Origin: Pelagibacteraceae bacterium AG-426-M19
GTDB taxonomy: Bacteria > Pseudomonadota > Alphaproteobacteria > Pelagibacterales > Pelagibacteraceae
NCBI GenBank assembly: GCA_003210025.1
Contig: QCNW01000001.1
Coordinates: forward strand, 1-64,000
Length of the DNA stretch: 64,000 nt
Reading direction: 5' to 3'
The stretch's first letter is position 1. Every line of letters starts with the position of its first letter. Of the stretch, positions 6,188 to 42,621 are shown piece after piece. The translations under genes and the position numbers were made by a program. A model generated the notes under the pieces. The model did not search any database, was not told the DNA's origin, and saw only the letters and a program-made list of their open reading frames with translations.

Positions 6188-6202
6188 AAAATTTTAACAA
6201 GA

Positions 6203-7069
6203 TTATTCTTTCCATTTTTTAAACCAATCTTCTTTGGCATACTCAGTTAACTTATAAGTACACCATTCATTTTTTCGTCCTTTAAGTAATTTTTTATGAG
6301 TATATCTTGCTGGAATTTGATAATTTCCAGGAGGATTACCTCTTTTCTTTTGACCTAAAGCGCAAGCAATTTGAAGTGGATCAAATGGATTATCTGAAGT
6401 TGGAGTTAAATAAACTGAGTCTTTTAAGTCTGGACAAGTTGGATCATTGTGATCGTAAACTCCTTTTCCAAATTTTTTTGAAAGATTTTGACTAAGAATA
6501 CCAGTGGTTAAATGTGCTCCATCTTTAACTCCTTTAGTACAAGGCATAGCAAAACCATTGCCATGAAGTAATTCATGAATTGAAATTTTAGTAATTTGAC
6601 CTGATGCTCTTTTTATAAACAAGTATCCATGATGAGGCCCCATTTGACCTCCGTCTCCGCTTGCCGCATCTGTAAATGAGAAATATAATTTTTTTGGATT
6701 ATTAAATCCTTGTTTTTGCAAGTAATAATCTGGATAATTAACATTCCATCCACCTTTTTTAGCTTTACGATCCATTCTTACAAATGAGATATCTAGTTTG
6801 CCATCTTGTCTATAATCAAATTTTAATCTTTGCTTATTGCCAGTCATTTTAAAAAATAAATCATCTATTTTTTTGACTTCTTTTTCTATCCAGCCATTAA
6901 TATCTCTTTCATTATCTTTTGTTTTTTTTGCAAGAAAATAAATAAAATGAATTTGATAATCATCAGTAACATCTGGCTGGTCTTCAAAAAATCTACCTGG
7001 TTTTTCATCAGATGCAAATAAAGACGAACTAAATAATGTGATTATTAGAATTAAGAATATTTTTTTCAT
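6203..7069 (-). CDS. Secreted hypothetical protein with HExxH motif (putative metallopeptidase-like)
   Basis: Signal peptide MKKIFLILIITLFSSSLFA; ISIHELLHGNGFAMPC. Confidence 0.7.
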   Translation of the reverse strand: MKKIFLILIITLFSSSLFASDEKPGRFFEDQPDVTDDYQIHFIYFLAKKTKDNERDINGWIEKEVKKIDDLFFKMTGNKQRLKFDYRQDGKLDISFVRMDRKAKKGGWNVNYPDYYLQKQGFNNPKKLYFSFTDAASGDGGQMGPHHGYLFIKRASGQITKISIHELLHGNGFAMPCTKGVKDGAHLTTGILSQNLSKKFGKGVYDHNDPTCPDLKDSVYLTPTSDNPFDPLQIACALGQKKRGNPPGNYQIPARYTHKKLLKGRKNEWCTYKLTEYAKEDWFKKWKE

Positions 7070-7356
7070 AAGCCTCTTATTATTATATTGGTCCCTTCAG
7101 AATTATCGAGTCTAATCTGTTTGATAGGTTTATATTCCTCTGAATTATACCACTCCAAAGCCCTCTCATAACTTGGAAATTTTAGAATAATTATTCTTGG
7201 AAAATTAGTTTTTCCATCAAATATTTGATATTCACCATTTCTAACCAAGAACTCTCCATCAAATTTTTTTACAATTGGATTAACTTTTTCAATGTACTCT
7301 TTATAATTTTCTGGATTAGTTACTCTTAATTGCGCAATTACATACCCTGCCGACAT
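7066..7356 (-). CDS. DUF1330 family protein
   Basis: GYVIAQLRVTNPENYKEYIEKV...GEFLVRNGEYQIFDG...RIIILKFPSYERALEWYNSEEYKPI. Confidence 0.9.
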   Translation of the reverse strand: MSAGYVIAQLRVTNPENYKEYIEKVNPIVKKFDGEFLVRNGEYQIFDGKTNFPRIIILKFPSYERALEWYNSEEYKPIKQIRLDNSEGTNIIIRGL

Positions 7357-7375
7357 TTATTCTCCTTTAATCTCT

Positions 7376-9070
7376 CTAATTAATACAGTTAGATGGACTC
7401 GTGTCATAGTTTTGTTCATCTAGGTATTGAAAACGATTAGTTAAAAATTTATTAACTTTTTCATTATTTTTTTTTGAAATTCTATCTACTTTACATCTTG
7501 ATGCATACCACCATAATACAGTTTCAGCTAAGTCTTCATTTCCTGGTAATTCCCAAGCATATTCTGAAATATAATACTTGTCAGTGCTAACAGCATTTAG
7601 CCATTTTTCCTCATTAACAGATCCGCCCCACCACCAATCAAGAGAAGCGTGGGTTAATTCATGAAACATTAACTCCTCAGCATATTTTTTATTTTCATTT
7701 GTAAGATAATCTGTGTGAATTACTATAGTACCTTGTCCTCCTGCCCAGCCTACTTTGCCTTTATGTATATTTATTTCTTTAACATTTTTTTTTAAAAATT
7801 TTGGCATTTGTCCATATATTTTTGCCCACTTTATTGCTTGTTTTTTTGCCTTTTTATTAGTTTTAAATTCATCATTAACATTTATTAATATATCCTTACT
7901 GTTCTCAAAACTTGCGTTAAAGACAAAAACTGTAAAACTACTTTTACCCCAACCATCTTTTGTGTATTTGTTTGTCAAGGTTCTCTTATCATAACCCATC
8001 ACTTTTTTTTTCTCTACAAATGATAAATTTATAAAATTACTTGGGTCTTTTTTATTTATTATATCTCCATCTTTCCACTCACTGCCACCTTTAAAAATGA
8101 AATTTTTGCTTAAACTTATTGTTTTTACAGGTTTGTCCATTTCCCATATTGCAACTTGTTTTACACCATCGTTCCAAATCATTGTTCCTTCGCCATGTCT
8201 ATTATTATTTTTCCACTCTCCGGTATAAACACCTCCACCACTACTATAAAAATATTTACCTTGTCCAGTTCTTTGGCCATTTACCCAATCACCTTCATAT
8301 CTATCTCCATTTGGCCAAGTACCAATTCCAAAACCATGCATATTTTGCATTTTCCATTCACCGACATATTTAAAACCTTTTTCCCAAACACCTGTCCCCT
8401 TTCCATTATCACAATTGCCTTCAACACAACCTATTGCCTTTCCGCTCGAGTCTGTCTCGATTAAATTTCCATTTTTCCACTCTCCGGATTGTGTTATGCC
8501 GTTTGCGAATATAAAGGTTCCTTGCCCATCAGCTTCTCCATTTTTTCTTCCACCGATGTATTTATCTCCATTTGCCCAAGTAACTGTTCCTTGACCATTT
8601 TGTATACCCAGCTCCCAATCACCAATATATTTTGTTCCATTAACCCATTTAAAAGTACCTAGACCATGGGGTTTTTGATTTTTCCAATTTCCATTATATT
8701 TATCCCCATTGGGCCATATAAAAGTTCCTTTTCCATTAACGCAATTACCTTTTATGCAACCAGTCTTAAGGGCTGTTTTATTTTCTATAAATTTTTTCTT
8801 GCCAATTGCAAAAAGTTTGCACTCACCATTTATTCCTTTTTCTTTTCTATGTTTTTCACAATCATTAAATCCATCTTGCTTCTCTGTTCCACGTCCGTAC
8901 TCACATTTTCCATCATTCCCAACTACAACAAAAAGATGATCATTAGAGCCTTGATTTAAAAGGTCGGCATAAACTTCATCAACTATCCAATCACATATTT
9001 GTTGATTTTCTGCATTAGAAGTTTCACACCATATAAAGCTAAAAAATATGGTCGCTAGTATTTTTTTCAT
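7376..9070 (-). CDS. Secreted MORN-repeat protein with C-terminal HExxH (metallopeptidase-like) domain
   Basis: Signal peptide; repeated GxGTxxWxNGxKYxGxWKNG units; C-terminal EELMFHELTHASLDWW. Confidence 0.85.
   Translation of the reverse strand: MKKILATIFFSFIWCETSNAENQQICDWIVDEVYADLLNQGSNDHLFVVVGNDGKCEYGRGTEKQDGFNDCEKHRKEKGINGECKLFAIGKKKFIENKTALKTGCIKGNCVNGKGTFIWPNGDKYNGNWKNQKPHGLGTFKWVNGTKYIGDWELGIQNGQGTVTWANGDKYIGGRKNGEADGQGTFIFANGITQSGEWKNGNLIETDSSGKAIGCVEGNCDNGKGTGVWEKGFKYVGEWKMQNMHGFGIGTWPNGDRYEGDWVNGQRTGQGKYFYSSGGGVYTGEWKNNNRHGEGTMIWNDGVKQVAIWEMDKPVKTISLSKNFIFKGGSEWKDGDIINKKDPSNFINLSFVEKKKVMGYDKRTLTNKYTKDGWGKSSFTVFVFNASFENSKDILINVNDEFKTNKKAKKQAIKWAKIYGQMPKFLKKNVKEINIHKGKVGWAGGQGTIVIHTDYLTNENKKYAEELMFHELTHASLDWWWGGSVNEEKWLNAVSTDKYYISEYAWELPGNEDLAETVLWWYASRCKVDRISKKNNEKVNKFLTNRFQYLDEQNYDTSPSNCIN
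8140..8765 (-). repeat. MORN repeat-encoding segment, two blocks each opened by GC(I/V)xGNCxNGKGT
   Basis: TGCIKGNCVNGKGTFIWPNGDKYNGNWKN and IGCVEGNCDNGKGTGVWEKGFKYVGEWKM. Confidence 0.75.
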
Positions 9071-9583
9071 TTAAAATATTGATTTCGAATATCGTTTCCA
9101 ATTATCTTGGTAATGTTTAGCGTTTTCTGTTATTTTTCCTATCTCCTCATCAGTAAGTTTTCTAACTACTCTTCCTGGTGCTCCAACTACTAACGAGTTA
9201 TCCGGAATATCTTTATTTTCAGTTATTAATGCTTTTGCACCAATCATGCAGTTTTTGCCAATTTTCGCATTATTTAAAATGACAGCTCCAATACCTATTA
9301 AACTATTGTCTCCAATTGTACATCCATGAAGCATAACGATATGACCGATGGTTACGTCTTTACCTATTCTTAATGGGCAACCTGGGTCAGTATGTAGAAC
9401 GCTCCCATCTTGAACATTTGAACCTTCTCCAATATGAATGTTTTCATTATCCCCTCTAATTACAGCATTAAACCAAACGCTAGAGTTTTTTTCTAGAGTG
9501 ACATCTCCTATTATAGTTGCATTTGGTGCCACCCAATTTTCGCCAGAGTTTTTTGGTTTTTTATCTTTTAAATCGTAAAACAT
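9071..9583 (-). CDS. Gamma carbonic anhydrase family / hexapeptide-repeat protein
   Basis: WVAPNATIIGDVTLEKNSSVWFNAVIRGDNENIHIGEGSNVQDGSVLHTD...IGHIVMLHGCTIGDNSLIGIGA. Confidence 0.92.
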   Translation of the reverse strand: MFYDLKDKKPKNSGENWVAPNATIIGDVTLEKNSSVWFNAVIRGDNENIHIGEGSNVQDGSVLHTDPGCPLRIGKDVTIGHIVMLHGCTIGDNSLIGIGAVILNNAKIGKNCMIGAKALITENKDIPDNSLVVGAPGRVVRKLTDEEIGKITENAKHYQDNWKRYSKSIF

Positions 9584-22492: not shown

Positions 22493-23533
22493 TTAATGAT
22501 TTATTGACGAGGAAAAATTCCAAGAACAATCAAAACTTGGTATATAAACTCTTGAAAGTTTTGTATTTCCAAAATTTTTGTTAAAAACATTTAACCAATT
22601 TTCAACTTGTTTTGGTTTTTTGTCTTGGCTTCCTACTTGAGCAGTAATTACACCTTTAGGTTTTAAAATTCTTTCTAAAGATGACATATTTTTTGCAGCC
22701 AAATCTATACAAAATTGATCATCATTTAGATCAACAAATATTTGATCATAAGTATTGTCTTTGACAGATTTAATACTTTCAAAAGCATCCCCCCAAACGC
22801 ATTTAACTGAATTCTTTTCTGTAGCCTTCTCACCAATTTTACCCAGGTGTTTATCACACACATCCACAACTTCAGGATCTAATTCATACCAATCTATAAA
22901 GCCAAAGTTTTGTGAAATGCATTCTCTTGCGACACCGCCGTCACCTCCGCCAATAATTGCAGCTTTTTCTTTGTTTGAATTTAAATTAAGACCTGAATTT
23001 ACAAAGGTTGAGCTATATAAATGTTCATCACTTTCAGCTACTTGTATTTCATTATCAATAAATAAAGCTTTTCCAAATTGTTCTAAATCAAGTATTTCAA
23101 TATATTGACCAACTTTAGATTTAAAATTTTCTAAAACTCTATTAACCACATATGATTTTTTTAAACCTGGAGAACTATAATTGTCATGATAAAGATCAAT
23201 AGTATCTCTATTAAATTCTTTAATGATGATATTTGTGTGTTCCATCTCATCTTTTATTATATCTAGAGAAACTTTTGGTGATACTTTTCCACATGTAAAA
23301 AAATCAAAGCTTACAATTTCTTTTTCTGGGAAAGTATGAAAACTAATGTGACTTTCAGCAAGCAAAGCGACCAATGTAAATCCTTGTGGCTCGAATTTAT
23401 ATTTAGATATTTTTAGAACTGTTACTTTTGCTGCTTTAGCAATTTTATAAACTAACTTTTCATAAAATTCGGGAGTATATTCCTTTTTAGTTCCGACTAT
23501 ATCCAGTGTTATATGTTCCCCAACTTTTTCCAT
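22493..23533 (-). CDS. speDE fusion: Fused S-adenosylmethionine decarboxylase / spermidine synthase-type aminopropyltransferase
   Basis: N-terminal AESHISFHTFPEKEIVSFDFFTCG (AdoMetDC class 1B); C-terminal AIIGGGDGGVARECISQNFGFIDWYELDPEVVDVC (spermidine synthase). Confidence 0.92.
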   Translation of the reverse strand: MEKVGEHITLDIVGTKKEYTPEFYEKLVYKIAKAAKVTVLKISKYKFEPQGFTLVALLAESHISFHTFPEKEIVSFDFFTCGKVSPKVSLDIIKDEMEHTNIIIKEFNRDTIDLYHDNYSSPGLKKSYVVNRVLENFKSKVGQYIEILDLEQFGKALFIDNEIQVAESDEHLYSSTFVNSGLNLNSNKEKAAIIGGGDGGVARECISQNFGFIDWYELDPEVVDVCDKHLGKIGEKATEKNSVKCVWGDAFESIKSVKDNTYDQIFVDLNDDQFCIDLAAKNMSSLERILKPKGVITAQVGSQDKKPKQVENWLNVFNKNFGNTKLSRVYIPSFDCSWNFSSSINH

Positions 23534-23622
23534 AAGAATCTAATATATATTTTTTTTAACTAACGAAATTTTTTACTTCTTTCAAACAAAAAACTATTAT
23601 AATAATTTATTGAGGTTAAACA

Positions 23623-25656
23623 TTGAAAAACAATTGGTCAGATAACGAAGCTAAAAAATATATTAAAAAGTATAAGAAATTAGGTCATTCTGAAGATATG
23701 GCTTTAAGAGTTTATACAACCAGGCTTCTAGGAAGAAATCCAGAATTGGTGTTGCATGGTGGTGGCAATACTTCAGTTAAGACCAAAATCAAAGATATAG
23801 ATGGTAAATATTATGATGTTCTTTGCGTAAAAGGCAGCGGATGGGATATGGCTGAAATTGAACCAGCGGGTTTGCCAGCTGTTAAATTAAATCCATTGCT
23901 TGCTATGAAAAAAAAGAAAAAGCTCTCTGATGATAACATGGTTGCTTTTCAAAAAAAAAATTTGATAGATACAAAATCACCCAATCCATCAGTTGAAACT
24001 TTTTTACATGCATTTTTACCATTTAAATTTGTTGATCACACTCATTCAGACGCAATTATGAAAATCACTAATAGACCAAATGGAGAAATGTTATCAAAAA
24101 AAATATTTGGTAAAAAAACTGCAATAGTACCCTACGTAATGCCAGGATTTAAGTTAGCGCAAAAAATAAATGAAGTTTATTCTAAAAACCCAAATATAAA
24201 CTGTTTAATTTTATTAAACCACGGTATTTTTACATTTGCTGATAATGCAAAAGATGCTTACAGTTTAATGATTAAGTATGTATCAGATGCTGAAAAAAAT
24301 TTAACCAAACTGAAAAAGAAAAAACTAAAACAGATAAAGAAAACTAAATTTAATTTCTCAACTTCAGATATAGCTCCTATATTGAGAGGTCTTTTATCTG
24401 AAAAAAATGATAACAAATTTATCTTGAATTTTAAAAAAAATAGTAAGTTAGATTATTTTATTAATGGTAAAGATATAAACAGGTATTCAAATGAAGGAAC
24501 AGCTACACCTGATCATGTTATAAGAGTTAAACCATTTCCTTTAATAATATCACCAAAAGCAAACTGTACTTTAGATGATTTTAAAAATTTGGCTGAAAAA
24601 AAATTTAAAGAATACCGCCAAAAATATAAAAAATATTTTGAAACTAATAAGAAAAAAACTAAAGAAAAAAAAGTAATGCTTGATACATCTCCTAGAGTAA
24701 TTCTTGTTCAGAATTTTGGTTTATTTACAGTAGGAGATAACTTAAAAGCTGCAAAAATTGCAGGAGATTTAACTCAAACTAATGCCAATGTAATTTCGAG
24801 TGTTGAAGAAACATCCAGATATAAATTTTTATCAAAAAAAGACTTATTTGATGTCGAGTATTGGTCCTTAGAACAAGCAAAATTAAACAAATCAAAAAAA
24901 GAATTGCAAGGAAACGTTGTTGTTATTACTGGTAGCACTGGTGAAATTGGTAAAGCAACTTATAAATTATTTAAAAAATATGGAGCTGAAGTTGTTTTGC
25001 TTGATATTAATAAAAGTAAAATAAATGATTTAAAGAATAAAATAAGTGATCTTTGTATTCACTGTGATGTGACCAACAAACAAAGTGTAAAAAAAGCATT
25101 TAATAAAATTTTGGAGATATACGGAGGTTTAGATATTTTAATATCAAATGCTGGCACTGCTATGGGTGGATCAATTGCAGAAGTTAATGATGAAATACTT
25201 CGAAAAAGTTTTGAAGATAATTTTTTCTCTCATCAAAATTGTGCTTCAGAGGCTGTAAAAATTATGAAAAAACAAAATATAAATGGATGTTTGTTATTTA
25301 ATATATCTAAGCAATCAGTTAATCCTGGTAAAAATTTTGGACCATATGGATTGCCTAAGTCAGCACTTTTAAATTTGTGTAAACAATATGCAATTGATTA
25401 TGGACACCTTGGCATAAGATCAAATGGTGTAAACGCTGATAGAATTAGAAGTGGTTTATTAAATGACAAAATGATTAAGCAAAGAGCAAAGGCAAGAGAA
25501 GTAACTACTGATCAATATATGAGTGGCAACCTACTGTTAAGTGAGGTCAAAGCAGATGATGTGGCCAAAGCTTTTTATCATCTTGCAATATCAAAAAAAT
25601 CAACCGGAGCAGTATTAACCGTTGACGGTGGAAATATTGCAGCTTCTTTGAGATAA
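23623..25656 (+). CDS. Bifunctional class II aldolase / short-chain dehydrogenase (RhaD-like architecture)
   Basis: TTG start with GAGG upstream; HGGGNTSVK, DHTHSDA, NHGIFTF (class II aldolase); VVITGSTGEIGKA, NAG, YGLPK (SDR). Confidence 0.92.
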   Translation: MKNNWSDNEAKKYIKKYKKLGHSEDMALRVYTTRLLGRNPELVLHGGGNTSVKTKIKDIDGKYYDVLCVKGSGWDMAEIEPAGLPAVKLNPLLAMKKKKKLSDDNMVAFQKKNLIDTKSPNPSVETFLHAFLPFKFVDHTHSDAIMKITNRPNGEMLSKKIFGKKTAIVPYVMPGFKLAQKINEVYSKNPNINCLILLNHGIFTFADNAKDAYSLMIKYVSDAEKNLTKLKKKKLKQIKKTKFNFSTSDIAPILRGLLSEKNDNKFILNFKKNSKLDYFINGKDINRYSNEGTATPDHVIRVKPFPLIISPKANCTLDDFKNLAEKKFKEYRQKYKKYFETNKKKTKEKKVMLDTSPRVILVQNFGLFTVGDNLKAAKIAGDLTQTNANVISSVEETSRYKFLSKKDLFDVEYWSLEQAKLNKSKKELQGNVVVITGSTGEIGKATYKLFKKYGAEVVLLDINKSKINDLKNKISDLCIHCDVTNKQSVKKAFNKILEIYGGLDILISNAGTAMGGSIAEVNDEILRKSFEDNFFSHQNCASEAVKIMKKQNINGCLLFNISKQSVNPGKNFGPYGLPKSALLNLCKQYAIDYGHLGIRSNGVNADRIRSGLLNDKMIKQRAKAREVTTDQYMSGNLLLSEVKADDVAKAFYHLAISKKSTGAVLTVDGGNIAASLR

Positions 25657-26733
25657 CTAATGAAATAGTTTTTTTAATCCTTCAGAAGAAGCATCGCAAA
25701 CTCCCTTTTCTGTTATTAATGCAGTAACATATTTAGCAGGTGTTACGTCAAAGGCTAAATTTAATGATTTGCTTTTTTCAGGATATATTAAAACTTTATC
25801 AACTTTATTATCTTTGTTAATTCCATCCACATGAGAAAGTTCTTTTGGGTCTCTTTCTTCTATTGGAATATCTTTAGAGTTTTTTAAATTCCAATCTATA
25901 GTTGAACTTGGTAAAGCAACATAAAAAGGTACTTTATTATCATAAGCTGCAAGAGCTTTTAAATATGTTCCAATTTTATTACACACATCTCCATTAGATA
26001 ATGTCCTATCTGTTCCAACAATACACATATCAACCTGTCCTCTTTGCATTAATATTCCACCTGTATTATCTGCTATAATTGTATTTGGAATTTCTTCTTC
26101 ATTAAGTTCATATGATGTGAGGTTTGCTCCTTGATTTCTTGGTCTAGTTTCATCTACCCAAATATGTATTGGTATTCCTTTTTTATGAGCATGGTAAATA
26201 GGAGAAGTTGCAGTTCCCCAATCAATTGTTGCAAGCCATCCTGCGTTACAATGCGTTAATATATTTACAGTATTTTTCTTTTTATTATAAATTTCTTCAA
26301 TAATTTTTAATCCATTGATGCCAATATTTTTACAAAAACTTATATCTTCATCACATATTAATTTAGCCTCACTTATTGATGATTTAAGAAGTTTATTACC
26401 TTCTAATCCAGATAATTTTTTAGCCATTCTATCAACAGCCCATTTTAAATTTATAGCAGTTGGTCTCGATCTAATTAAGTCTTTAGAAGCATTAACTAAA
26501 AATTGGTTATTATTATTTTCTAAAATAGCCAACACTATACCGAATGCAGCTGTAGCACCAATCAAAGGTGCTCCTCTAACTTCCATTGTTTTGATAGCAT
26601 TTATAGCATCTTTAACTGAACTTAATTCTTTTATTATAAATTTGTGTGGAAGCTTTGTTTGATCTATTATTTTTACAACTTGTTTTTCTTCATCAAACCA
26701 AATTGTTTTATATTCAACACCATTAATTTTCAT
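25657..26733 (-). CDS. mtnA: S-methyl-5-thioribose-1-phosphate isomerase
   Basis: MEVRGAPLIGATAAFGIVLA; THCNAGWLATIDWGTATSPIYHAHKKGI; VDETRPRNQGANLTSYEL; GTDRTLSNGDVCNKIGTYLKA. Confidence 0.95.
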   Translation of the reverse strand: MKINGVEYKTIWFDEEKQVVKIIDQTKLPHKFIIKELSSVKDAINAIKTMEVRGAPLIGATAAFGIVLAILENNNNQFLVNASKDLIRSRPTAINLKWAVDRMAKKLSGLEGNKLLKSSISEAKLICDEDISFCKNIGINGLKIIEEIYNKKKNTVNILTHCNAGWLATIDWGTATSPIYHAHKKGIPIHIWVDETRPRNQGANLTSYELNEEEIPNTIIADNTGGILMQRGQVDMCIVGTDRTLSNGDVCNKIGTYLKALAAYDNKVPFYVALPSSTIDWNLKNSKDIPIEERDPKELSHVDGINKDNKVDKVLIYPEKSKSLNLAFDVTPAKYVTALITEKGVCDASSEGLKKLFH

Positions 26734-28180: not shown

Positions 28181-29043
28181 TTTGCAGACATAATTGCCTG
28201 GAAAGGTCCACTACCAATAAATAATTTATTACTACCACCATTAACAAGGTGCATTCCCTCACCCACATTAAATGTCATACTTATAGAAGTAGTATCTGTT
28301 GTCACGACCACAGGATTTGCAAATGTTACTAAACCTTCTAGTTTATCAACTTCGGCCGCATTTGCTGCTCTATGTTCATTAGTGTCAACTAAATATCCAG
28401 CAATATCTGCTGTAGTTCCATTAATATTTTCAGCTTCAGCTTTTGATGAAAAAGTGTCTCCTACTCCACCAAAATGTGTTAAGGTTTCAACAAATTTTCC
28501 TGGAGTGATAGCGCTAGAGCCACAAACTGAACTATTGGTATGAGTGCTAGCTTGTGCATGTGTTCCTGAACCAGCTACAGTTCCACAAAAAACTCCTGAG
28601 CCTCCTGTCATGCCAGTCATTGATGCGCTGAGCTCACCTGCCCAAGTTATACCAAAAGTATTATCCATATAAGCGTATCCATGAGTATAAGTCCCTGCTG
28701 GAGGTCTTGTATAAGTTCCATCTAAAACTATTTCTGCTCCTTGAGTTACAGACGCAGTTGCTCCACTTGAATTAGTAAAAATTTGTGAACATGGAGTTAA
28801 AACAACTGTAGATGATGTAGTAGCTTCTGTTGGGGCACTTGTACATAAATATAATTTATAAATTACTACTTCATAAAGAGCTGGAGCTTCATCGCATCCA
28901 TCATCAATAAAATCAGCACCATCACCAGTTGCTTTTGCCACAACTCCATCAGTAACCGTGCATGCCTTTGCTTGGTTAGAATTTACTATCTCAAAAACAA
29001 AGATTAATGATAAAACTAGAAATAAATATTTTGCATATTTCAT
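28177..29043 (-). CDS. Secreted Thr/Ser/Gly-rich, Cys-containing hypothetical protein
   Basis: Signal peptide MKYAKYLFLVLSLIFVFEIVNSNQAKA; start abuts stop of upstream barrel gene. Confidence 0.65.
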   Translation of the reverse strand: MKYAKYLFLVLSLIFVFEIVNSNQAKACTVTDGVVAKATGDGADFIDDGCDEAPALYEVVIYKLYLCTSAPTEATTSSTVVLTPCSQIFTNSSGATASVTQGAEIVLDGTYTRPPAGTYTHGYAYMDNTFGITWAGELSASMTGMTGGSGVFCGTVAGSGTHAQASTHTNSSVCGSSAITPGKFVETLTHFGGVGDTFSSKAEAENINGTTADIAGYLVDTNEHRAANAAEVDKLEGLVTFANPVVVTTDTTSISMTFNVGEGMHLVNGGSNKLFIGSGPFQAIMSAN

Positions 29044-29892
29044 TTAAAATCCTCCTGCTTTAACAGTAAAACCTGCTCCTTTTTTCTTTATGATATTTTC
29101 TCTTCTAACCTTTTCATAAATTCTATCTTTCATAGAAATTCTTTCAAAAGCCTTGCTACTAAACAAAGATGTGCCAGGATTTTTTATACTATTACTATAT
29201 CTAAGATTGATAAAACTTTGATCGTTGTGATTATCATAATCAGTGTGACCAATTTCAAATGATAATCCAGAATTCGGTACTTTAAATAGTGTGGAAAATT
29301 CTAAACCTTGAAAATCATTTCCACTAGGAACTTCAAAATCGAAAGCTTTAAGATAAGCTTTCATGGATGGTATGTATGGAAGATGTGCTCCTAATTCAAC
29401 ATCAAATCCATCGATAGCCTCTTCGTCTTTACCATTTTTTCCTTTTTTACTAGAGCTTTGAGCAAAATATTGGTTGTAATTTAAATCTAAAATAGAAGAT
29501 TTAATTTCAGCACCTATACTAAATCTTTGGTGTTCATAATCAAATTCATAATCATAAAAAGCATTTAAACCAAATAATATACTTTCATCATTAGATAAAT
29601 ATCTTTGTCCAATTCCTAAATTAAATGTTTCTCTGTCACTGTCGTGTAAAAATAAAGATCCTTGGAAAAAAGATAAGTCTGAACTATCTTCTGAAAAAAT
29701 CTTAAATGTTTGTATTCCTATTTCTGGTTTAATAGTTTCAATTTTTTTTATTGAAAAATCTGTATTTTCAAAATTCTCCTCCAAAAAGCTTTCCAAAGAA
29801 GAATAAAATCTATCTACTACTTCATCTACTTTTGCAAAAGAAGCAGATATAAATAGCAACTGAAATATCATAATTTTTGCTAAAAACTTCAT
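29044..29892 (-). CDS. Intimin/invasin (inverse autotransporter)-like beta-barrel protein
   Basis: Signal peptide; LGIGQRYLSNDESILFGLNAFYDYEFDYEHQRFSIGAEIKSSILDLNYNQYF resembles inverse autotransporter barrel segments. Confidence 0.7.
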   Translation of the reverse strand: MKFLAKIMIFQLLFISASFAKVDEVVDRFYSSLESFLEENFENTDFSIKKIETIKPEIGIQTFKIFSEDSSDLSFFQGSLFLHDSDRETFNLGIGQRYLSNDESILFGLNAFYDYEFDYEHQRFSIGAEIKSSILDLNYNQYFAQSSSKKGKNGKDEEAIDGFDVELGAHLPYIPSMKAYLKAFDFEVPSGNDFQGLEFSTLFKVPNSGLSFEIGHTDYDNHNDQSFINLRYSNSIKNPGTSLFSSKAFERISMKDRIYEKVRRENIIKKKGAGFTVKAGGF

Positions 29893-29936
29893 AAGTTATT
29901 TATAGAGATATATATATGAATTAAAAGGTCTAAAAA

Positions 29937-30013
29937 TGGTAGCGGGAAGTGGGATCGAACCACTGACCTCGGGCTTATGAGTCCCGCGCTCTAACCAACT
30001 GAGCTACCCCGCC
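29937..30013 (-). tRNA. tRNA-Met (CAU), encoded CCA
   Basis: RC: GGCGGGGTAGCTCAGTTGGTTAGAGCGCGGGACTCATAAGCCCGAGGTCAGTGGTTCGATCCCACTTCCCGCTACCA; cloverleaf foldable, anticodon loop CTCATAA. Confidence 0.93.
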
Positions 30014-36342: not shown

Positions 36343-38770
36343 AATCCTTATTGTTTAAAGGTTTTTCTAATACCTCAACTGGATATTTTTGTTTTTCAAT
36401 TTCAATATATATATTTTTGTCTTTTAATGTTTTAACTGTATTACCAGAATTGACATATCCAAAAGAAAGATTTTTATCATAACAAAAAGAATAATTTCCA
36501 GAAGTTGTTCTACCAATTATTATGTCATCCATATAAATAGGTTCTTCATGTAATAAAAGTGGCTCACCAGGTTTACTGTCTTTAAGAGTAAACATCATCA
36601 TCCTTTTATCTAATTTTTGGTCTTTAATTTTTAATAGAGCATCTTTTCCAATAAAGTTTACATTTTTCTTATAACTAATTGCAAATTTTAAACCTGCTTG
36701 ATACTGATTTTCCTCTGGTGAAATATCATGTCCCCAGTGAACAAATCCACTTTCCATTCTCATAATATCCATTGCATGCATTCCACAATGAGATAGTTCA
36801 AAGTTTTTCCCCTCTTCAATTAGAATTTCATATAAATCCTTAGCTAAACTTGAGTCAACGTAAAGTTCAAATCCTAATTCACCAACGTAAGAAAGTCGTT
36901 GAGCCCAAACTTTTAAACCATTTATCATTATGAACTTTCCAGTTCCAAACTTAAATTTATCATTACTAAAGTCTTCATTGCTTATTTTCGAAATCATCTC
37001 TCTACTCTTTGGACCAAACAGTCCTAAACAACAAATATCCTCTGTTACATCTTTAAAAGATACGTCTTCATCTAAATATTTTAAGATATGGTATTTATCA
37101 TGTTCTCTTGTAGCTGCAGAGCTTACAACTCTAAAAAAGTTTTTATCCATACAAACAACTGTTAAATCTGTTTCTATTCCACCGTCCTCATTTAACATAT
37201 GAGTGTATGTTGTTTTTCCAATCTCATTTTTAATATTAGCAGTACACAACTTTTGCAATTCTTGGTGTGTTTTTTCACCTTTTAAGTCAAACTTAGAAAA
37301 AGTTGAAAAATCAAATAGACCAACATTTTTTCTTGTATTTAAAGTTTCATGCTTTGCTGATGGGTACCAATTTTGATAATTAAAACTATATTCATAATTA
37401 GGTTCTTTACCATTTAATGAATACCACATTGGTCTTTCAAAACCTCCAGCAACTCCAAAACAAGCTCCTGCTTTTTTTAATTCTTCATGATAGGGTAAAA
37501 GTTTTTGATTTCTTGATGTATTTGGTTGTTTATAAGGCCAATGCATTCCATACAGATCACCAAGCGTTTCTGTTACCCTTTCCATAATGAAATTTTTTGA
37601 AGAGTGGAATTTTTGAAACCTTTTAATATCTAATGAAAATAAATCTTCATTAATATGTCCATTCATCATCCACTCGGCAGTAACCCTACCCGCTCCTCCT
37701 GAGCTAGCAATTCCAATGCTATTAAAGCCACAACATGTATATAAATTTTTAACTTCAGGAGTTTCGCCTAATAAATATTGAGTATCTGGAGTAAAAGACT
37801 CTGGACCGGAGAAAAATTTTCTTATTCCTGCACTTTCTAACATTGGCAATCTATGAAATGATTTTTCTAAGTAAGGTTCAAAGTGATCAAAATCATCTGG
37901 CAGTTCACCAAATGAAAAATTATCTGGAACTCTTCCTGTATCTTTAAATGCTGGTTTTGCATTTGGTTCAAAAATACCTACAAGCATTTTTCCTGCATCT
38001 TCTTTTAAATATAAACAAGCATTATAATCTCTCAGCACTGGAAGATTTTGAGGTAAATCTTTTATTGGTTCTGTGATGATATAGAAATGCTCGTTTGGAT
38101 ATAATGGAATACTTACATTTATTTCTTCACCTAATTGTCTTGACCACATTCCTGTTGCCATAACAACATATTCACAATCGATGACACCTTTATCAGTTTC
38201 TACCCCACTAATTCTAGAATTTTTAATTAAAATTTTTTTAACAGGTGTCTTTTCAAAAATCTTTGCACCCTCCATTCTTGCAGCTTTTGCAAGCACATTG
38301 GTTACTCCAACTGGATCTGCTTGACCATCTTTCGGCATGTAAACACCACCTACAATATCTTCACTATGTAATACGGGATACAATTCCTTTAAACGTTTTT
38401 TATTAAGAACTTCTACTTCAACATTTGATAATTGAGCAGTTGTTGCTTGTCTTAGTAGTTCTTGCATTCTTTCTTTAGTGGATGCAACTGTGATTGCACC
38501 ATTTTGCTTCATTCCAGTTGATAGACCTGTAGTCTTTTCTAAATCTTTATAAAGATCTAAAGAATATTTTCTTATTTTTGTAATTGTTGATGATGCACCT
38601 AATTGACCTAGAAGACCTGCGGCGTGCCAAGTAGTTCCTGAGGTGAGTAAATCTCTTTCAAGCAAAACCACATCTTTCCATCCAAATTTTGCAAGATGAT
38701 AAGCGCATGATGTTCCGGCAACGCCTCCGCCTATAACAACTACTTTAGTACTTTTTGGTAACACTTTCAT
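36332..38770 (-). CDS. FAD-dependent oxidoreductase fused to GcvT domain (dimethylglycine/sarcosine dehydrogenase-like)
   Basis: [48 protein letters not shown] plus C-terminal GcvT-type domain. Confidence 0.92.
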   Translation of the reverse strand: MKVLPKSTKVVVIGGGVAGTSCAYHLAKFGWKDVVLLERDLLTSGTTWHAAGLLGQLGASSTITKIRKYSLDLYKDLEKTTGLSTGMKQNGAITVASTKERMQELLRQATTAQLSNVEVEVLNKKRLKELYPVLHSEDIVGGVYMPKDGQADPVGVTNVLAKAARMEGAKIFEKTPVKKILIKNSRISGVETDKGVIDCEYVVMATGMWSRQLGEEINVSIPLYPNEHFYIITEPIKDLPQNLPVLRDYNACLYLKEDAGKMLVGIFEPNAKPAFKDTGRVPDNFSFGELPDDFDHFEPYLEKSFHRLPMLESAGIRKFFSGPESFTPDTQYLLGETPEVKNLYTCCGFNSIGIASSGGAGRVTAEWMMNGHINEDLFSLDIKRFQKFHSSKNFIMERVTETLGDLYGMHWPYKQPNTSRNQKLLPYHEELKKAGACFGVAGGFERPMWYSLNGKEPNYEYSFNYQNWYPSAKHETLNTRKNVGLFDFSTFSKFDLKGEKTHQELQKLCTANIKNEIGKTTYTHMLNEDGGIETDLTVVCMDKNFFRVVSSAATREHDKYHILKYLDEDVSFKDVTEDICCLGLFGPKSREMISKISNEDFSNDKFKFGTGKFIMINGLKVWAQRLSYVGELGFELYVDSSLAKDLYEILIEEGKNFELSHCGMHAMDIMRMESGFVHWGHDISPEENQYQAGLKFAISYKKNVNFIGKDALLKIKDQKLDKRMMMFTLKDSKPGEPLLLHEEPIYMDDIIIGRTTSGNYSFCYDKNLSFGYVNSGNTVKTLKDKNIYIEIEKQKYPVEVLEKPLNNKDFKN

Positions 38771-38796
38771 ACTTGATGTGATTTATACGATTAAAT

Positions 38797-39619
38797 TTAA
38801 AAGCAAACAATATGATCGATATGGATGGGTCTTTTTATACCAAATTTTTCATCGACTTCATGTTGATGAATATGATGAGAATGCACAAAAACCGGTATTA
38901 ATTTATTACTTAATGTCTTTAATGTATAAATAAAATTTGATCCTCTGAATTTTCTATCTACTACTTCAAGTTTAAGATTGCTCGCATCATCGTGTTGTAA
39001 GTCTTCTGGCTGTATTAAAAGTTTTACTTTAGATCCTATTGGGAACGGTCTAGCGAAATTTCCTGTTATTGTACCTAAATCTTCATTTTCAAGACTTTTC
39101 GGACTGGTAACTTCTGCTGGTATTAATGTGCCTCTGTTTAAAAAATTAACTACTTCTACTGAATTTGGTAAATGGTAGACATTATATGGATCATCATATT
39201 GCTTTAACTCACCGTCTAAAATTATTCCACATTTGCTACCCAGGTAAAAAGCTTCATATGAGTCATGAGTTACAATTATTGTAGTTATTTTTGAATTTGT
39301 TAAAATTTGTTTTAATTCAACTTGAATTTCCTCCTTAAAACTTTGATCTACATTAGATAATGGCTCATCAAGCATTAATAAATCAGGTTGAGAAACTAAA
39401 GATCTTGCTAGAGATGCTCTTTGGGCTTCGCCAGCACTTATCTCATGTGGAAATTTGTTTAATATTTTGTTTAAGTTTAAAAAATTAATTACTTCTTTAG
39501 TTTGAATTTTTTTATCATCTTTCACCTTCATTTTCAATATTTAAAGTAACATTATTAACTTTGTTTTTCCCGCCAGCAGCAAAAGATACATTTTCAATTT
39601 CAAAAAAATTATCAGCCAT
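38797..39619 (-). pseudogene. fbpC-like: Iron-type ABC transporter ATP-binding gene with internal out-of-frame deletion; Walker A/Q-loop region missing
   Basis: ATG at 39619 gives MADNFFEIENVSFAAGGKNKVNNVTLNIENEGER*; 39537.. frame resumes at KDDKKIQTKEVINFLNLNKILNKFPHEISAGEAQRASLARSLVSQPDLLMLDEPLSNVD. Confidence 0.8.
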
Positions 39620-41229
39620 TAGTCTTTCAAAATAAATTTAGATGTGATCAAAATAAATGTACTTGCAATCAATATCAAGAATAATGATGGAACTGCTGCT
39701 GCTTCTAAAAGATCTTGGGATGCGAATATATATGCTGTTGTAGCGAATGTTTCAAAGTTAAATGGTCTCAATATCAAAGTTATAGGTAATTCTTTTATTA
39801 CTTCTATAGTAATCAATATCCCTATAAGAAATACAGAGTTTTTTAAATAAGGAACATGAATTCCTAAAAAAGTTTTAATTTTCGAGTAACCAAGAAGATA
39901 AGAACTTTCATCAATTGACCTATTTATTCTTTCATAACCAGTTTTCAATCCATTATAAGCTAGTGAATAAAATCTTATAAAATAAACTATCACTAAACCA
40001 AAAATAGATCCTATAAAAACTCTCTTTATAGAATTAAATTCAAGGGCTTTTATAAAAGTATTATCAAACCAAGCAATAAAAGTGATGAATGCTACAGCTA
40101 AAATTACACCAGGGATTGCATAACCAGTAATTGAAAATGTTGTAAGATAATTTAAGAATTTACTTTTAGTTACTCTGTTTCCATAATTTGAAATAAATGA
40201 AAAAATTACTAGAACAACGCTTGATAAAAATACCAGGTAAATTGTATTTATAAATAATTGAAAAGTATTTAAATCAAATAAATTTTTTGGAAAAATTATT
40301 GTCCAATACAACATTTGTAAAACAGGGAATAAAAAGCTGACTAAAAAAACTAAAAAACAAAATCCGAATGCTAAAGATCCTTTTGAAAAGTTTAATTTAA
40401 TTTTCTTCTTTTCTTTAATTCCTCCCTTAACTGGAGAGTGATATTGAGCTTTTTTTCTTGAGATATTCTCAATAAAAAAAAGTCCTAATATAAATAATAG
40501 TAAAAAAAATGAGAGCTGATTTGCAAAAGCTAAATCATCAAAAGATATCCATGAATCATATATTCCAGTAGTAAGAGTTGCTATTCCAAAAAATGATACT
40601 GCTCCAAAATCTGATAATGTTTCCATAGCAACTAAGGCTAATCCAGCAACTATCGCTGGTCTTGCAGATGGTAAAATGATTTTAAAGAAAGACTTATATT
40701 TTGAAAAACCTAGATTTTGTCCTAATTCTATTAAATTTTGAGACTGATAATGAAAAGATGCTCTAGTTAGAACATAAACATATCCAAATAGTGAAAAAGA
40801 AATAGATAAAATAGCACCAAGCATACCATCAAATTTTGGGATGGATTGATTGTATTCACCAGGTCCAAATAAAGATTTCAATATTGAATATAGTGTTCCA
40901 AAGTTTTCAAAAAAAGCAGTTAATGAATAAGCATAAATGTAAGCAGGTACTGCAAAAGATAATATTAAAGCCCATTTAAAAAATTTAACGCCTGAAAATT
41001 CATAAAATGATACTACATATGCACAGCCTACACCTAAGATTAATGTCAGAAATAAAACTCCTAAAAGTAATATTAAAGAATTATAAATATATTCAATTAA
41101 AAATGTATTTTTTAAAATATCAAAGTAATTAGTTGTTTCTTGGAAGAAACTTGCAAACACAGTCAAAATTGGAATTGCAACAACAAATGAAACTAAAAAT
41201 GAAGAAAGGTACCATGAATTAAATTTCAT
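39619..41229 (-). CDS. fbpB: Ferric iron ABC transporter permease
   Basis: 536 aa two-domain permease; PSARPAIVAGLALVAMETLSDFGAVSFFGIATLTTGIYDSW is typical of FbpB/SfuB. Confidence 0.92.
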   Translation of the reverse strand: MKFNSWYLSSFLVSFVVAIPILTVFASFFQETTNYFDILKNTFLIEYIYNSLILLLGVLFLTLILGVGCAYVVSFYEFSGVKFFKWALILSFAVPAYIYAYSLTAFFENFGTLYSILKSLFGPGEYNQSIPKFDGMLGAILSISFSLFGYVYVLTRASFHYQSQNLIELGQNLGFSKYKSFFKIILPSARPAIVAGLALVAMETLSDFGAVSFFGIATLTTGIYDSWISFDDLAFANQLSFFLLLFILGLFFIENISRKKAQYHSPVKGGIKEKKKIKLNFSKGSLAFGFCFLVFLVSFLFPVLQMLYWTIIFPKNLFDLNTFQLFINTIYLVFLSSVVLVIFSFISNYGNRVTKSKFLNYLTTFSITGYAIPGVILAVAFITFIAWFDNTFIKALEFNSIKRVFIGSIFGLVIVYFIRFYSLAYNGLKTGYERINRSIDESSYLLGYSKIKTFLGIHVPYLKNSVFLIGILITIEVIKELPITLILRPFNFETFATTAYIFASQDLLEAAAVPSLFLILIASTFILITSKFILKD

Positions 41230-41265
41230 ATATTATAATCCGCCTTATAATCATGAAAATCAAAA

Positions 41266-41299
41266 GTGCCCATGGTTTAGGAGACCAAACCATAGGCAC
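41266..41299 (-). terminator. Strong hairpin between fbpA/mini-ORF and fbpB (attenuator candidate)
   Basis: gtgcc-c-atggttt ... aaaccat-a-ggcac, 12 paired bases with one mismatch; CTTTTGATTTT follows on the minus strand. Confidence 0.6.
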
Positions 41300-41312
41300 A
41301 AACTTTAGAAAA

Positions 41313-41486
41313 TCAAAAATTAAATACTTTTAGGATATGCGGAACCTCCTTAGTTTTAATTTCAGACAATTTTCTATTATTTAAACGTTTATTGATTTTT
41401 TCACACTCCGTAGCACATGCAGGACAGGCTTTGGTAGATTTATTATAATCAACTTCCGTAGTAAATTTTTTTTTAACAGCTATCAT
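41313..41486 (-). CDS. 57-aa small protein with CxxCxxxC motif (not in supplied ORF track)
   Basis: MIAVKKKFTTEVDYNKSTKACPACATECEKINKRLNNRKLSEIKTKEVPHILKVFNF*, ATG immediately after fbpA stop. Confidence 0.55.
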   Translation of the reverse strand: MIAVKKKFTTEVDYNKSTKACPACATECEKINKRLNNRKLSEIKTKEVPHILKVFNF

Positions 41487-42509
41487 TTACTTCCAACCAG
41501 CAGCTAACATTACTTCTAATGCATCTGCTTGTTTTGCACCGTATGACTTAACACTTGTTTTGGTATCCATTACAAAGTTCATCTCTTTGCCTGGAACTAA
41601 ATCATTAGGTGTTACACCATCGATCATTGGATACTCAAAAGTATTATTTACAATGTGATTTTGAGCCTCTGTTGATAATAAAAACTCAACTAATTTTACA
41701 GCATTAGCTTTGTTTGGTGCATATTTAAGCATTCCAGCTCCACTAATATTAATGTGCGTTCCTCTATCTTGTTGATTAGGGAAAAAAGGCATTACTTTTT
41801 TTGCTGCTTCTTGTTGTTCAGCACCTTTTTTTCCAGATAACATCAAAGCATGATAGTATGTGTTTGCAACAGCAATATCAGCTTCTCCAGCTGCAACAGC
41901 CATGATTTGAGCACGGTCGTTACCTTTTGGACTTCTGGCCATGTTTGCTACAACAGCTTTAGACCATTCTGCAGTTTTTGCTTTACCATTATTCTTAACA
42001 AGTGAAGCAACTAAAGATTGGTTATAAATGTTGTTAGATTTTCTAATTACTAATCTACCTTTCCATTTTGGATCAGCTAGACCTTCGTAAGTCATGCCAT
42101 TTAGTTCATTTGCATTTACTCTTTCAGGTGAATAATAAATTATTCTTGCTCTCTTAGCTATTCCAGTCCATTTAGCAGATCTAAATTGTGCAGGTACAGC
42201 ATCCTTAATAGCTTTTGACCAACCAGCGTTTTGCATCATGCCTTTAGCTGCAAATGCACCTAATCTTCCAGCATCAGCTGTGATGTATAAATCTCCAACA
42301 CAGTCTGCTCCCTCTTCTGTAATTCTTTTTTGCAGGGCTTTATCTTTACCTGATACTACGTTTACTTTAATTCCTGTTGCTGCTGTGAACTTTTCATATA
42401 ATTGAATGTCAGAATCATAGTGTCTTGCACTAAAAATATTGACCTCAGCTGCAATCGTAAAACTTGAAATTAAAGCAAAAAACAATGAAATTATTGTTAA
42501 TTTTCTCAT
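41487..42509 (-). CDS. fbpA: Fe(3+) ABC transporter substrate-binding protein
   Basis: Signal peptide; EVNIFSARHYDSDIQLYEKFTAATGIKVNVVSGKDKALQKRITEEG; start revised to 42509. Confidence 0.92.
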   Translation of the reverse strand: MRKLTIISLFFALISSFTIAAEVNIFSARHYDSDIQLYEKFTAATGIKVNVVSGKDKALQKRITEEGADCVGDLYITADAGRLGAFAAKGMMQNAGWSKAIKDAVPAQFRSAKWTGIAKRARIIYYSPERVNANELNGMTYEGLADPKWKGRLVIRKSNNIYNQSLVASLVKNNGKAKTAEWSKAVVANMARSPKGNDRAQIMAVAAGEADIAVANTYYHALMLSGKKGAEQQEAAKKVMPFFPNQQDRGTHINISGAGMLKYAPNKANAVKLVEFLLSTEAQNHIVNNTFEYPMIDGVTPNDLVPGKEMNFVMDTKTSVKSYGAKQADALEVMLAAGWK

Positions 42510-42584
42510 TCTACTCCTTAAATTTATATTTATATTAAACGTAATTTGTCCTGCAATGCGGATGATAACTATTCTCAATGAAAA

Positions 42585-42621
42585 TGATTATCAATTGCAA
42601 TATTGTCGCAATTGATAATCA
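42585..42621. promoter_or_regulatory. Perfect 14-bp inverted repeat, candidate iron-responsive operator upstream of fbpA
   Basis: TGATTATCAATTGC - aatattgtc - GCAATTGATAATCA; each arm contains a GATWATC-type core as in Fur boxes. Confidence 0.65.

Follow-up and report, generated by a model that had tools for sequence, protein, structure and literature searches.

A 233-bp deletion between short direct repeats removes the Walker A segment of the iron-importer ATPase gene sfuA in one SAR11 assembly

Background

In the SAR11 bacterium Candidatus Pelagibacter ubique HTCC1062, SfuABC is encoded by SAR11_1236-1238 and is induced by iron limitation, with the transcripts of sfuC, sfuB, and sfuA rising 16, 10, and 5-fold, respectively (PMC2864753). 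Sharing of ATPases among type I importers has been documented for sugar importers in a paper in which iron does not figure (PMC7658222), and we found no literature extending such sharing from sugar importers to iron. Chimeras formed during multiple displacement amplification (MDA) occur at about one per 22 kb, mostly at complementarities of 2-21 bp; inversions make up 85% of them, and direct joins below 10 kb accounted for only 11 of 475 (PMC1855051).

Here, we describe an operon of the same content as SfuABC of HTCC1062 (ATPase, permease, and periplasmic Fe3+-binding protein) in a 64,000-nucleotide window of contig QCNW01000001.1 from Pelagibacteraceae bacterium AG-426-M19. The window belongs to SAR11, and its nearest named relatives are the Pelagibacteraceae single-cell genomes AG-894-G18 and AG-893-J08. 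The operon is intact and syntenic in the relatives of the window, whereas the window's own sfuA lacks 233 bp.

Results and discussion

An iron operon with one broken gene

On the minus strand, the locus runs from sfuC through a 57-aa open reading frame, a hairpin, sfuB, and sfuA to a gene for an FAD-dependent dehydrogenase (Table 1); the last of these differs from the HTCC1062 listing, where the neighbour of sfuA is azlC (SAR11_1235). The sfuC product clearly falls within the FutA/FbpA group of periplasmic Fe3+-binding proteins, with PDB entry 2pt1 (“Iron transport protein”, FutA) as its best match (E = 8.6e-86) and 6g7n and 2voz as further matches, all three at E ≤ 3e-69. Because the binding protein matches these structures, iron is well supported by homology as the substrate of the operon, and, together with the induction of SAR11_1236-1238 by iron limitation (PMC2864753), this points to ferric iron as the probable substrate. 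SfuB carries the PF00528 domain within its 536 residues, as expected of a fused-type permease. Both sfuB and sfuC are intact, in line with a first, sequence-only reading of the window that had considered their fbpB and fbpA counterparts intact.

Table 1 Features of the iron operon and its surroundings in the window
Feature	Position	Strand	Remarks
sfuC	41487..42503	-	Fe3+-binding protein, FutA/FbpA family; intact; SAR11 naming
57-aa cysteine-containing ORF	41313..41486	-	Between sfuC and sfuB; kept in relatives
Terminator-like hairpin with T tail	41266..41299	-	Between sfuC/57-aa ORF and sfuB; consensus match only
sfuB	39619..41229	-	Fused-type ABC permease, 536 aa; intact; BPD_transp_1
sfuA, broken (fbpC/futC-type ATPase)	38797..39619	-	From translation
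N-terminal stub of sfuA	39515..39619	-	Residues 1-33 as in relatives, changed codon, then TGA
Deletion junction in sfuA	39520..39525	-	Single GTGAAA copy left; 233 bp absent relative to relatives
C-terminal remnant of sfuA	38797..39525	-	Residues 110-351 of intact protein; out of frame with stub
FAD-dependent dehydrogenase gene, 812 aa	38770-36332	-	Downstream neighbour of sfuA

Two small elements separate sfuC from sfuB. The 57-aa frame stays open in some 50 near relatives as well as in more distant ones whose DNA is about 80% identical; its product has a CPxC-x2-EC motif, and the C-terminus (SEIKTKEVPHILKVFNF) is near-invariant. Searches of Pfam and NCBIfam returned no match for it, and the frame probably encodes a genuine small protein belonging to the iron operon. 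The hairpin comprises 15 pairs and resembles a terminator by consensus match only; such a structure could account for the larger increase in sfuC transcript than in the transcripts of the two other genes when HTCC1062 is iron-limited. At the other end of the operon, two relatives (L060 and L094) carry an insert of about 1.06-1.08 kb between sfuA and the dehydrogenase gene.

The start codon of sfuA at 39619 overlaps the sfuB stop as TAATG, and the first frame reads MADNFFEIENVSFAAGGKNKVNNVTLNIENEGER before reaching a TGA after 34 codons, with the first 33 residues normal and identical to those of AG-894-G18. The rest of the gene is open in the next frame, down to 38797 and upstream as far as an ATG at 39531 and a TTG at 39537. 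Reading both frames, we found no P-loop encoded in the broken gene; translation thus bears out the sequence-only description of a normal N-terminus, a stop, and a displaced remainder. The remnant keeps the signature (ISAGEAQR), Walker B (LLMLDEP), the H-loop region, and a TOBE_2 domain. Residues 34-109 are lost, including Walker A (GPSGIGKT) and the Q-loop, so that only two of the four motifs by which we recognise a functional ATPase (Walker A, Q-loop, signature, and Walker B) remain. The ATPase of an intact relative matches the FbpC structure 3fvq at E = 8e-43, whereas that of the window has neither Walker A nor the Q-loop.

We sized the lesion by aligning sfuA with its counterparts in over 70 near relatives, mostly single-cell genomes with 90-99.5% DNA identity upstream of the break, all of which have an intact gene of 351 aa; the nearest intact copy is that of AG-894-G18 (L049:4659-5714, 351 aa). 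The gap is identical against every near relative at 233 bp, or 77 codons plus 2 bases, within the 70-90 codons estimated beforehand, and since 233 is not divisible by 3 the reading frame is shifted. With AG-894-G18, the window shares 99.5% identity upstream of the deletion (39520-42600) and 97% downstream (38501-39525), a drop near the break that may mark a recombination boundary.

A microhomology junction

The segment missing from the window is bounded on either side, in the nearest intact copy, by the 6-bp direct repeat GTGAAA (...GAAGGTGAAATAGT... and ...AGAGTGAAAGATG... in AG-894-G18), of which one copy is left in the window (...GAAGGTGAAAGATG...), where the 36-nucleotide junction reads ATTGAAAATGAAGGTGAAAGATGATAAAAAAATTCA. 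When deletions of 100-400 bp were placed at random in the window by simulation, 0.45% of them had end homology of at least 6 bp, a chance of about 0.0045. The sequence-only reading had proposed that AAGGTGAA could fit both sides of the junction; its GTGAA part and one further A are indeed common to both, and the remainder is not. The intact relatives, together with the repeat at the breakpoint, support its broader claim of a short-repeat-mediated, out-of-frame loss of Walker A and the Q-loop. As in microhomology deletions generally, MDA chimeras included, two 6-bp end copies are present and one is kept at the join. Nothing about the deletion is unusual in comparison with such events, and its sequence does not separate an in-cell from an in-vitro origin; it is an ordinary microhomology deletion, private to this genome, and either very young or artefactual.

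If the event took place in the sequenced cell, a single recent deletion would have joined the two GTGAAA copies 233 bp apart, by replication slippage or microhomology end-joining. Removal of residues 34-109 and the shift of frame would then make an active SfuA impossible, leaving a FutABC/FbpABC-type Fe3+ importer without its own motor, with binding protein and permease still encoded. Alternatively, a phi29 strand may have been re-primed at the second GTGAAA during whole-genome amplification, or a minor path of the assembler may have become the consensus, in which case sfuA would be intact in the cell itself. The frequency of MDA chimeras and their usual complementarities of 2-21 bp (PMC1855051) are consistent with an in-vitro join, and nearly all close relatives are themselves single-cell genomes, so that the source genome may well be one too. 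The scarcity of short direct joins among those chimeras, however, argues for a real mutation: with 85% inversions and 11/475 direct events below 10 kb, an amplification origin is possible and not favoured by type.

An otherwise clean contig

The constancy of the gap against all near relatives and the repeat at its ends favour a real mutation, as does the quality of the surrounding sequence. Beyond the break, the source contig is collinear with AG-893-J08 over 152 kb at 96.3% identity and shows no other deletion longer than 6 bp, and the assembly is thus clean in that stretch. Over the whole 213-kb contig we saw no second clean direct-repeat deletion within a gene, the remaining breaks relative to relatives reflecting differences in gene content or lying at the diverged far end. 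Likewise, no large frame-breaking indel was found in the corresponding loci of 51 relatives (0.51 Mb aligned, nearly all from single-cell genomes), and the absence of comparable events on both counts speaks against an in-vitro origin. A generally error-prone assembly was considered and set aside; the other indels of the window relative to its relatives are all short, and none is both large and within a gene. Separately, gene content differs from that of relatives at 6200-9090, 23528-25673, and 28181-29935, with collinear flanking sequence; the last of these adjoins a tRNA (29940-30013), the only match in an Rfam search of the window.

Age, spread, and selection

The exact junction had no match in 84,980 genomes (a scan that may omit the source genome's own record), and, allowing up to 3 mismatches, it occurred in the source genome alone among 399 genomes of the genus. 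A lineage-wide deletion is therefore rejected, the junction being private in both scans. Short sfuA frames in three other genomes of the genus (G025, G048, and G267) were traced, from the lengths of their contigs, to genes running into contig ends. A strong sfuA match was present in 43 of the 44 genus genomes that are at least 90% complete, source included (the exception being G009). Across the corresponding stretch, pairwise comparison of 13 relatives gave 1674 synonymous and 12 nonsynonymous codon differences, from which strong purifying selection on sfuA follows. Between the remnant and AG-894-G18, its nearest relative, there are 7 synonymous and 0 nonsynonymous codon differences; decay after the deletion is not visible.

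These results bear on both origins. A very recent loss-of-function mutation in the cell has, in our judgement, an even chance of being correct, and on that reading the change was presumably present in the living cell and transport lost. Against it stand the single observation of the junction and the strong conservation of the gene, and the absence of decay is equally expected from an artefact. An artefact is almost as likely, since an undecayed singleton allele interrupts a core gene under strong conservation and single-cell amplification produced most of the close relatives' genomes; we give the in-vitro deletion somewhat less than an even chance. The deletion mechanism put forward in the sequence-only reading is supported, whereas its conclusion that the cell's ATPase is disabled is tempered to this extent.

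The lack of decay might instead suggest that the remnant, of 242-244 aa, is a functional new product, translated by re-initiation from the ATG at 39531 and acting as a regulatory or dominant-negative subunit; the frame is open from that codon, and the signature, Walker B, and TOBE are all preserved. Its conservation, however, is older than the deletion, and the form occurs in no second genome; a homodimer of the remnant would have no composite ATP site, as Walker A is absent. We regard this as the least probable reading, with hardly any weight.

Other routes for iron

The source assembly is 91% complete, and sfuB and sfuC are each present in a single copy, with no second copy of either found in it. 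A second intact sfuA was sought with the lost segment, which matched only the join itself. FeoB and Zip were not found in the assembly; a single Nramp match fell below threshold and was discarded as an alternative importer, and a FecCD-like match was ZnuB adjoining ZnuC. No other recognisable Fe3+ importer is present in the assembled part. With the gene conserved and no alternative importer found, a viable cell with a broken sfuA would be unusual, which counts against a real mutation.

Loss of SfuA could nevertheless be tolerated as a stable trait of the lineage if another ATPase drove SfuB or iron entered by another way. Intact UgpC-, MalK-, and PotA-like ATPases, the closest paralogues with a TOBE-type tail, are present in the genome, and sharing of type I importer ATPases has precedent among sugar importers (PMC7658222). 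That precedent does not extend to iron, however, and the paralogues, each within an operon of its own, share only about 30-35% identity with SfuA; moreover, the allele is absent from relatives and the remnant is undecayed. We consider tolerated loss very improbable, and slightly more so a living SAR11 lineage without its own Fe3+ importer ATPase, in which SfuB would be run by a UgpC-, MalK-, or PotA-like ATPase or active Fe3+ import would be missing. Given the lack of another Fe3+ importer, the distance of the paralogues, and sharing known for sugar only, the deletion is better read as a loss of function than as a rewired system. Nothing supports an adaptive loss of iron uptake.

Conclusions

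Whether the sfuA deletion is real or artefactual, annotating it as a trait of the lineage would be unwarranted. An artefactual origin would make it a warning not to infer gene loss from a lone single-cell assembly. If it is real, it would be a naturally occurring null of the sole iron-importer motor recognisable in a streamlined ocean bacterium, on an otherwise clean contig, and would open the question of whether SAR11 can live without SfuA.
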